From assembly GCF_000348685.1 (NCBI RefSeq), contig NZ_ANLA01000004.1, forward strand, positions 434,001 through 498,000: a DNA stretch of 64,000 nucleotides. Reading direction: 5' to 3'. The translations under genes were made by a program, and so were the position numbers. Origin of the DNA: Xanthomarina gelatinilytica. GTDB lineage: Bacteria > Bacteroidota > Bacteroidia > Flavobacteriales > Flavobacteriaceae. The notes beneath the pieces were generated by a model. That model did no database searches and was not told where the DNA came from. It saw only the letters and a list, made by a program, of their open reading frames with translations. Positions 29,306 to 29,836 of this stretch are shown here, in pieces (the stretch's first letter is position 1; each line of letters starts with the position of its first letter).

Positions 29306-29379
29306 TCCTCCTTAGCTCAGTTGGTTAGAGCATTTGACTGTTAATCAAAGGGTCCTTGGTTCGAGCCCAAGAGGGGGAG
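29306..29379 (+). tRNA. tRNA-Asn (anticodon GTT)
   Basis: A full cloverleaf was folded by eye: acceptor TCCTCCT/AGGGGGA with discriminator G, D arm GCTC...GAGC, anticodon arm TTTGA-CTGTTAA-TCAAA with GTT as anticodon, and T arm CTTGG-TTCGAGC-CCAAG. It is followed by a strong terminator. A damaged second copy of the 3' half lies at 29716-29795. Confidence 0.96.
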
Positions 29380-29420
29380 CTTAACAAAAGAAAGCCCTTA
29401 CAGAGATGTAGGGGCTTTTT
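29372..29420 (+). repeat. 49-bp direct repeat, first copy (tRNA 3' end plus terminator)
   Basis: The stretch from the last acceptor-stem strand of tRNA-Asn through the terminator is repeated without a mismatch at 29788-29836. The two copies flank the GIY-YIG reading frame. Confidence 0.92.
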
Positions 29421-29421
29421 T
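29392..29421 (+). terminator. Terminator of tRNA-Asn
   Basis: 11-bp stem AAGCCCTTACA/TGTAGGGGCTT with a GAGA tetraloop and a T run. It would stop transcription before the GIY-YIG frame. Confidence 0.88.
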
Positions 29422-29427
29422 GGTTTT

Positions 29428-29724
29428 ATAATTATAATACCTTGTGTTTACATATTACAATCCAAACAATTGAATCGGTTCTACATTGGTTACAGTTCCA
29501 ATATAGGATTAAGATTGGAATTCCATAAACATCCAGACACAAGAAAATTTACAAGCAACGCACAAGACTGGATTTTATATTACAAGATAGACTGTACCAC
29601 AAAATCGCAAGCATTGGCCATTGAGGCACATATCAAGCGAATGAAGAGCAAAGTCTATATAGTCAACCTAATAAAACATCCAGAGATCACTACAAAACTT
29701 CTAGAGAAGTATCGTGACTGTTAA
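29428..29724 (+). pseudogene. GIY-YIG nuclease reading frame lodged between two tRNA-Asn 3' copies
   Basis: About 90 codons with the GIY-YIG fold: CVYILQ and FYIGYSSN form the two tyrosine strands, the catalytic Arg is in GLRLEFH, and the metal-binding Glu in AIEAHIKRMK. Small single-domain GIY-YIG proteins of this size are common in Bacteroidota. Oddities: no ATG, GTG or TTG lies in frame between the tRNA and the domain (only ATA/ATT codons at 29428-29439), a terminator precedes it, and its TAA stop is supplied by the duplicated anticodon loop. It may use a non-standard start or be dead; I call it a probable decayed gene. Confidence 0.65.
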
Positions 29725-29730
29725 TCAGAG

Positions 29731-29748
29731 TCCCGAAAGCTTTCGGGA
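29731..29748. repeat. Perfect 18-bp palindrome TCCCGAAAGCTTTCGGGA
   Basis: It lies inside the partial tRNA copy, between the variable-loop GTCC and the T arm; these bases are not in the intact gene. Palindromes starting TCCCGA are commonly scattered between genes in flavobacteria. Confidence 0.8.
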
Positions 29749-29769
29749 TTGGTTCGAGCCCATTGCTTG

Positions 29770-29787
29770 TCCCGATTCCTATCGGGA
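29770..29787. repeat. Second TCCCGA palindrome (TCCCGAT-TCCT-ATCGGGA)
   Basis: Seven-base arms with a 4-base centre. It lies inside the same partial tRNA copy, just before the acceptor strand, together with about 7 extra bases (TTGCTTG). Confidence 0.8.
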
Positions 29788-29836
29788 AGGGGGAGCTTAA
29801 CAAAAGAAAGCCCTTACAGAGATGTAGGGGCTTTTT
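29788..29836 (+). repeat. 49-bp direct repeat, second copy
   Basis: Identical to 29372-29420. It marks the right end of the duplication around the GIY-YIG frame. Confidence 0.92.
29808..29836 (+). terminator. Duplicate terminator after the partial tRNA copy
   Basis: Same 11-bp stem and GAGA loop as at 29392-29421. It may also help separate the plus-strand unit from the convergent PepSY gene. Confidence 0.75.

Follow-up and report, generated by a model that had tools for sequence, protein, structure and literature searches.

The window analyzed here is a stretch of 64,000 nucleotides from the genome of Xanthomarina gelatinilytica, in which an rseP-like gene lies 5′ of an intact tRNA-Asn(GTT) gene. 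The tRNA is followed by a terminator, a frame for a GIY-YIG nuclease, a partial tRNA-Asn, and then the same terminator again. This gene order is that of the original prediction, which was made from the sequence, and it is confirmed by ARAGORN, by repeat analysis, and by Pfam. The tRNA gene is continuous and Rfam reports a tRNA alone in this locus (L010, 67 bits), and a group I intron within the tRNA was accordingly rejected.

Table 1. Features of the tRNA-Asn locus and their positions in the window.
Feature	Position	Strand	Basis
Intact tRNA-Asn(GTT), target gene	29306..29380	+	ARAGORN
Intrinsic terminator 3′ of intact tRNA, native-like	29390..29421	+	Sequence, same-genus comparison
GIY-YIG nuclease frame	29437..29724	+	PF01541, E 2e-12; stop inside tRNA copy
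Partial tRNA-Asn, tRNA positions 30-75, with two hairpins inside	29715..29796	+	Repeats, alignment
Hairpin 1, TCCCGAAAGCTTTCGGGA, at the place of the variable loop	29731..29748	+	
Hairpin 2, TCCCGATTCCTATCGGGA, between T arm and acceptor strand	29770..29787	+	
Terminator, second copy	29806..29836	+	Direct repeat

The second copy spans position 29715 to about 29836. Its first base corresponds to tRNA position 30, which lies on the 5′ side of the anticodon stem and not, as had been proposed, in the anticodon loop. It was also said to run through to the terminator; the terminator is indeed reached, but two 18-nt hairpins, missed earlier, interrupt the copy on the way. The claim that the final 49 bases are identical holds, wherein the run AGGGGGAGC...GGGGCTTTTT occurs at both 29372-29420 and 29788-29836. 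The anticodon stem reads TCAGA in the second copy versus TCAAA in the intact tRNA. When the pattern CCCGA-N6-TCGGG was sought with at most one mismatch, only hairpins 1 and 2 matched in the 64-kb window, against 0.19 matches expected, and two matches were reached in 1 of 100 shuffles of the window. We read the partial tRNA-Asn as a displaced half of the gene. As a folded RNA, this partial copy gives an overall z of only −1.4. No integrase gene lies between the intact tRNA and the copy, where the GIY-YIG frame is the sole listed frame of at least 50 aa; a 56-aa frame begins inside the second tRNA copy.

The first bases of the tRNA copy supply the stop codon of the GIY-YIG frame (TAA, 29722-29724). 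All eight aligned family members carry the Pfam GIY-YIG domain. Y13, G15, R23, H27, and E60 are invariant columns of the family, each kept in the window protein. We take catalytic roles to lie among the conserved Y, G, R, and E residues of GIY-YIG proteins. At the expected start of the window frame there is no ATG, GTG, or TTG, and ATA occupies positions 29437-29439 where relatives carry ATG. The sole listed start is a TTG at 29356, inside the tRNA, and the frame is open up to that point. The start codon of the window frame looks to have been lost, and because the frame is without the usual start codon, the window copy may be a decayed member of its family.

Nucleases of this family have about 95 residues and scarcely exceed the catalytic domain. 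Their nearest solved chain is UPF0213 (E 1e-6), and the match to the solved chain of intron-associated endonuclease 1 is not significant (E 0.15). Among profiles of phage homing endonucleases, phrog_5123 is matched by one of the eight members (E 1e-4) and none by the window protein. The 12 closest pairs of Asn-type proteins, among 25 pairs listed, have dN/dS values of 0.07-0.15; the median is 0.37 over all 30 pairs, unaligned, and the values near or above 1 are read as stemming from equal-length pairs that were left unaligned.

Comparison with related loci had been proposed as a check, and the rseP end, tRNA-Asn, and terminator are present in all seven other loci from the same genus (G001-G007). 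No GIY-YIG match occurs within 1.3-1.5 kb 3′ of tRNA-Asn at any of the seven; this absence is the only one that counts for these relatives, in that a search for partial copies with the tRNA alone, which found nothing, misses the copy of the window too. When the genomes G001-G005 were searched with a protein query, three of the five showed only weak matches, located away from this locus. The pattern that would favor a plain tandem duplication, in which relatives have the GIY-YIG gene already beside the tRNA, was not seen. A terminator like that of the window follows tRNA-Asn in several of these relatives, most closely in G003, and differs in G007. The anticodon stem is TCTGA/TCAGA in six of the seven and TTTGA/TCAAA in G007. 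Since both terminators of the window are thus native-like, evidence of a foreign 3′ end cannot come from the window by itself. The proposal that a homing-type element carried in a replacement 3′ end draws its support instead from the recurrence of the arrangement and from empty sites in two other genera.

To survey recurrence, 149 genomes of the family were searched with the window protein, and 65 of them gave matches. From the matches listed, 97 distinct loci were built (L059, cut at a contig end, was left out), and in 54 of these a same-strand tRNA lies no more than 250 nt away; not one of the 97 has a tRNA within this distance on the opposite strand only. Another 25 of the 97 belong to a different subfamily by a C-terminal sequence pattern, picked after the proteins had been seen, and none of these has a tRNA within 250 nt. 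The same is true of 18 further loci, for 6 of which the contig ends within 250 nt. Of the 54 tRNA-linked loci, 45 have a partial tRNA copy beyond the gene, on its far side; no such copy was found in the other nine, which include all three tRNA-His loci as well as L133 and L135 at tRNA-Asn.

A second set came from a scan of named records with eight Asn-type proteins, from which the best 80 of 426 relatives were kept. Within these best 80, a same-strand tRNA lies within 250 nt in 61, with 55 genes downstream of tRNA-Asn, 2 upstream, 3 at tRNA-Met, and 1 at tRNA-Arg. The far-side partial copy is present in 56 of the 61 and was not found in five. For 12 of the remaining 19 relatives, tRNA-Asn sequence occurs within 700 nt, including three with intact tRNA-Asn genes 300-433 nt away; the other seven comprise one with a weak tRNA-Met piece and six with nothing. 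Further GIY-YIG frames beside tRNAs and partial repeats, which had been named as a second check, are found in both sets. The hosts of the best 80 are mostly Flavobacteriales, with additional representatives in Algoriphagus, Marinoscillum, Taibaiella, Chitinophaga, Saprospiraceae, Bacteroidales, Chlorobiota, and one Rickettsiales, several of these being metagenome bins.

The loci fall into two classes. In the 3′ class, an intact tRNA is followed by the gene and then by a partial 3′ half (Asn, Val, Met, Phe, Arg-TCT, Asp, and Pro). In the 5′ class, a partial 5′ half is followed by the gene and then by the intact tRNA (Asn, Arg, Pro, Ala, Met, and Asp). On several tRNAs, two to five similar units form tandem arrays with a period of about 300-410 nt that comprises the gene and the partial tRNA.

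Additional loci were observed in the genome from which the window comes. A second tRNA-linked GIY-YIG gene (L004 1400-1820; G000:C5, about 71700) is of the 5′ class; tRNA-Arg(TCG) follows it directly, and the locus includes an eroded partial copy as well as a hairpin of the CTGTCTGTCGGCAGGCAG type. Two more GIY-YIG genes (L003 1203-1898 and L001 1000-2300) are located within intergenic repeats: one is flanked by 109-nt direct repeats that are 99% identical, at a contig end, and the other lies among GTCATTCTGAACGAAGTGAAGAATCT repeats. In an order-level relative (L039 1515-1917), three consecutive tRNA-Asn genes are called, the middle one, with anticodon ATT, perhaps being a damaged copy.

With the L043 protein as query, no match was found among annotated phages, and the plasmid search returned one distant match (Legionella, 36% identity, E 5e-4). 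On these grounds a phage or plasmid vehicle was set aside. GIY-YIG matches were present on 2 viral contigs. On one of these, an IMG/VR contig (L150 319-641), a GIY-YIG gene lies directly upstream of tRNA-Pro, and this contig is a possible vehicle for the 5′ class.

Empty sites at tRNA-Met were available in the genus of G144, in which 18 genomes were searched and 12 tRNA-Met loci, 11 of them from relatives, were compared; two tRNA-Met loci of this genus are cut by contig ends. Among the 12 loci, a GIY-YIG gene is present at tRNA-Met solely in G144 and G185. In G171 and G178, tRNA-Met is directly followed by 214 nt that, in G144, flank the first array behind its last partial copy (96-97% identity). 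G173 and G170 match this flank over the initial 35 nt beyond tRNA-Met, and a weaker match of 65 nt is found in G174. Different sequence follows tRNA-Met in G182, G183, and G184, which are three of the eight empty relatives whose tRNA is complete. The terminator that follows the intact tRNA-Met in G144 and G185 is absent from all eight.

The T stem of the tRNA is ATGG/CATG in the intact tRNA-Met of G144 and TTGG/CAAG in the last copies of both G144 arrays, as in six of the eight empty relatives. The T stems nevertheless speak against a simple history, in that those of the empty relatives differ among themselves (CTGG and GAGG also occur). In G185, the intact tRNA carries GAGG/CTCG and the partial copy ATGG/CATG, and some inner partial copies of G144 have mixed T-stem alleles. 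Because of the flanks and terminators of the empty sites, the native 3′ end and its terminator are placed behind the gene, and the intact tRNA is joined to another terminator. Thus, by comparison of these loci, a swap of tRNA halves is demonstrated at tRNA-Met.

Two further observations were made at the tRNA-Met arrays. A stretch of about 6.9 kb (L070 3060-9956; G144:C1, about 1217059-1223955) separates two array stretches and is flanked on both sides by element units; it may be a larger passenger. Downstream of the array, a SAM-I/IV riboswitch match is located at L070 11839-11930.

The same exchange is evident at tRNA-Asn in the genus of G165, which is probably Leeuwenhoekiella because the G165 protein is identical to the L213 protein. 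Thirteen genomes were searched and the tRNA-Asn loci of 11 relatives compared, none of which has a GIY-YIG gene at this site. In G165, one terminator type follows the intact tRNA-Asn and is found again after the partial copy, and a native-type terminator lies further to the right, behind a GGAGC remnant of the tRNA. The native-type stretch starts at the very end of the tRNA in 8 of the 11 relatives; two of the 11 gave no match. The element-type terminator occurs without the gene in G196, as the footprint of a lost element would look. From this comparison of loci, the native terminator of G165 has been displaced behind a tRNA fragment, which demonstrates a second half-swap. For other targets, the comparison at tRNA-Pro did not yield a clear half-swap, with the first unit in G122 truncated and the promoter side not conserved, and a genus with the 5′ class that is represented by only 2 genomes offered no empty site.

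A protein tree was built from the 114 proteins, drawn from both sets, whose genes lie within 330 nt of a tRNA (87 columns, 110 different rows, many unresolved forks). The tRNA type plus side requires 22 changes on this tree, against a mean of 50 for shuffled labels, and none of 200 shuffles was as low. Single groups are formed by Phe, Arg-up, His, and, with weak support, Val; Met and Pro types are scattered. The rseP end is upstream in 11 of 15 Asn loci examined. At rseP-tRNA-Asn, the gene lies 3′ of the tRNA in L040, L041, L043, L157, L171, L180, L197, and L207, and 5′ of it in L044, L045, and L101. As judged from this arrangement, entry into the rseP-tRNA-Asn locus takes place on both sides of the tRNA.

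A hairpin within the partial copy is a further recurrent feature. From 115 loci, 112 were left once identical ones were removed, and 110 had enough sequence for a count. Of these 110 loci, 93 have a hairpin of at least six perfect pairs within the copy segment of 110 nt, compared with 4 of 103 control segments, which were not matched for a position just behind a gene, and 98 of 2200 shuffles. By its letters, the best hairpin is terminator-like in 14 of the 93 positive segments (counted by eye). In the Asn clade, the hairpin directly precedes TTGGTT and replaces GGTCC; a pattern search places it there in 45 of 55 loci and inspection by eye in 4 more (L180, L198, L218, and L229), with letters that are changed and mostly remain paired. 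Some relatives, such as L042, L179, L204, and L209, have a hairpin near the place of hairpin 2. Elsewhere the hairpin is located in the anticodon arm (Val), the anticodon loop (Met), the T loop (Phe), or the D loop (5′ class). Because the hairpin adjoins the native half, we take the element to end there.

The results above can be accommodated by one mechanism. Insertion, the exchange and displacement of tRNA halves, clustering by tRNA type, the position of the hairpin, and the arrays are all shown by the compared loci. The element would consist of a gene for a GIY-YIG nuclease of about 95 residues, a replacement half of the target tRNA, which in the 3′ class would bring its own terminator (seen at two loci), and a terminal palindromic hairpin beside a short piece of tRNA. 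The nuclease would cut a tRNA gene that carries no element, at a loop characteristic of the nuclease's clade, and the break would be repaired from a DNA copy bearing the element. The incoming half would restore a working tRNA, and the native half would stay behind, with the gene between it and the tRNA and the hairpin as a mark. Unequal recombination between rebuilt and displaced halves could then produce tandem arrays or clean losses. The hairpin may mark or protect the cut site. Several points weigh against the mechanism: the rebuilt tRNA keeps an intact sequence and might thus be cut again, the proteins hardly extend beyond their catalytic domain, some tRNA-linked loci have no far-side copy, and the flanks and T stems at tRNA-Met vary.

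Cutting by the nuclease, recombinational repair, the cut site, and the role of the hairpin are what we infer, in agreement with the accessible text on fungal mORFs (PMC3630166) and phage SegB (PMC13096335). The original prediction placed the cut at the anticodon loop; the boundary marked by the hairpin in the Asn clade is instead the variable loop, and a cut there would be deduced from that mark. Patchy presence at a fixed target site, set against empty relatives, is what is expected of a homing gene, and it is seen here. The hallmark of mORFs, wherein a replacement end arrives and the native end is displaced, is found at tRNA-Met and tRNA-Asn in two genera, and is not demonstrable for the window copy itself. 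We consider it likely that these loci represent recurrent homing-type elements of about 0.3-0.4 kb in tRNA genes of Bacteroidota, of which the window holds a probably decayed copy.

The hairpins also suggest another explanation. REP sequences and RAYT transposases are a known case of palindromes that are paired with one protein family and also lie scattered in the genome. By analogy, the GIY-YIG protein might recognize and spread palindromes, for which tRNA loops would be one landing place and the tRNA half a by-product. Consistent with this, the palindrome CCCGAWAGCTWTCGGG occurs in 47 of the 149 genomes, including 32 of the 65 with a match to the window protein versus 15 of the 84 without. 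Expressed the other way, a match is present in 32 of 47 genomes with the palindrome versus 33 of 102 others (Fisher p 7e-5, uncorrected for relatedness, with the matches including GIY-YIG proteins away from tRNAs). At least seven CCCGAWAGCTWTCGGG places in five genomes (G079, G144, G156, G159, and G169) have a GIY-YIG match no more than about 60 nt away. The hairpin type also tracks the protein tree, requiring 11 changes against a shuffled mean of 18.7 and a minimum of 16 in 200 shuffles, with types of our own grouping that cover 87 of the 114 rows.

Against the spreading of palindromes by the protein, 15 of the 47 palindrome genomes have no match to the window protein, and not one of 20 CCCGAWAGCTWTCGGG places in G020, G065, and G146 has a GIY-YIG gene within about 600 nt; two of these three genomes have no match to the window protein. 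Moreover, the spread of palindromes does not account for the swap of tRNA halves. The likeness to REP and RAYT lies in palindromes that accompany one protein family and are also dispersed, whereas the differences are the HUH transposase of that system, in place of a GIY-YIG protein, and the tRNA half-swapping seen here. We regard this explanation as improbable, although it fares better than the others that follow.

Palindromes with TCACGCC are found in 16 of the 149 genomes, partly but not solely inside partial copies. The evidence that palindromes sit inside larger stem-loops is weak: mean flank complementarity is 4.7 versus 3.7 in shuffled sequence (P 0.009), but just 2 of 20 palindrome places have at least seven flanking pairs (P 0.13). 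In these two, L234 and L241, a TCCCGATAGCTATCGGGA palindrome occupies the loop of a larger inverted repeat, which is terminator-like in L234.

tRNA loci are common points of exchange. The GIY-YIG gene could be passive cargo, or a former host gene, at a tRNA locus that was swapped by ordinary homologous recombination with foreign DNA. The precise steps are not readable from sequence, and exchange at tRNA loci agrees with the available portion of PMC9897764. However, every locus with a tRNA within 250 nt, in both sets, has one on the same strand, and passive carriage is also opposed by the clustering of tRNA types, by entry on either side of one locus, and by the low dN/dS of close pairs. We judge hitch-hiking to be quite unlikely.

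Equally unlikely, in our estimate, is a plain tandem duplication of the tRNA 3′ end and terminator that caught the GIY-YIG gene by chance. Such an event would fit the two native-like terminators of the window with their 49 identical bases, the tandem tRNA-Asn genes of a few order-level relatives, and the arrays, in which units have been multiplied. It does not fit the constant place of the hairpin, the clustering of tRNA types on the protein tree, or the finding at tRNA-Met and tRNA-Asn of two genera that the intact tRNA has another terminator and the native one lies behind the copy; for the family, plain duplication is contradicted by the empty sites at these two tRNAs. An RNA-guided reading, with the partial tRNA as a guide, was rejected, as adjacency alone speaks for that role.

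The preferred reading, recurrent homing-type elements that exchange one half of a tRNA gene, can be compared with known systems. We rate free-standing endonuclease elements as the closest kind, with fungal mORFs and phage SegB as the nearest known examples. According to the accessible text of PMC3630166, mORFs occur in the mitochondrial atp6 gene of Allomyces and in atp6, atp9, cox2, and nad3 of Glomus. As here, a mobile endonuclease ORF brings a replacement 3′ end for its target gene, a hybrid gene forms, and the native 3′ end remains downstream. Unlike the bacterial tRNA genes considered here, the targets are mitochondrial protein genes, three of the four Glomus cases involve LAGLIDADG ORFs, and that part of the source mentions no 5′ version, terminal hairpin, or tandem array.

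SegB of phage T6 is described in the available portion of PMC13096335 as a free-standing GIY-YIG endonuclease that lies near tRNA genes and cuts in them, with tandem amplification of the tRNA region through homologous recombination. The same portion reports that inefficient cutting of the donor alleles is typical of free-standing GIY-YIG enzymes. SegB differs in acting in phage genomes, in the lack of a described swap of tRNA halves in that portion, and in its reported indifference to isotype, as opposed to the clustering of tRNA types on the protein tree here; none of the terms hairpin, palindrom, or partial tRNA appears in the main text.

Integrative elements in tRNA genes offer a third comparison, and these employ an integrase. 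They likewise leave the tRNA whole with a fragment at the far side of the insert, but they are about 9-23 kb in the accessible part of PMC9897764, compared with one GIY-YIG gene and about 0.4 kb here. Among the open-licence papers listed, a description of such elements in bacterial chromosomes was not found. The features that set these elements apart from other free-standing endonuclease elements are the swap of tRNA halves, the two mirror-image classes, and the hairpin typical of each clade.

If the reading as homing-type elements is true, endonuclease elements that persist by repairing their own breaks also target bacterial tRNA genes. At about 0.4 kb, these elements would perhaps be among the smallest mobile units with an enzyme of their own, and many of the tRNA fragments in Bacteroidota, as well as many small GIY-YIG genes next to tRNAs, would be accounted for. 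Their proteins are candidate natural nucleases against particular tRNAs. Two questions would become testable, namely in what way an essential gene can serve as the target of a parasite and whether homing spreads tRNA alleles. A bolder version, which we put forward tentatively and hold to be somewhat less probable than its negation, is that these are minimal selfish single-nuclease elements that exchange one tRNA half at each invasion in mirror-image 5′ and 3′ forms, with a hairpin that co-evolves as a mark of recognition or immunity and solo copies that are the dispersed palindromic repeats. If this selfish-element version is true, the tRNA genes of these bacteria would be repeatedly overwritten chimeras.
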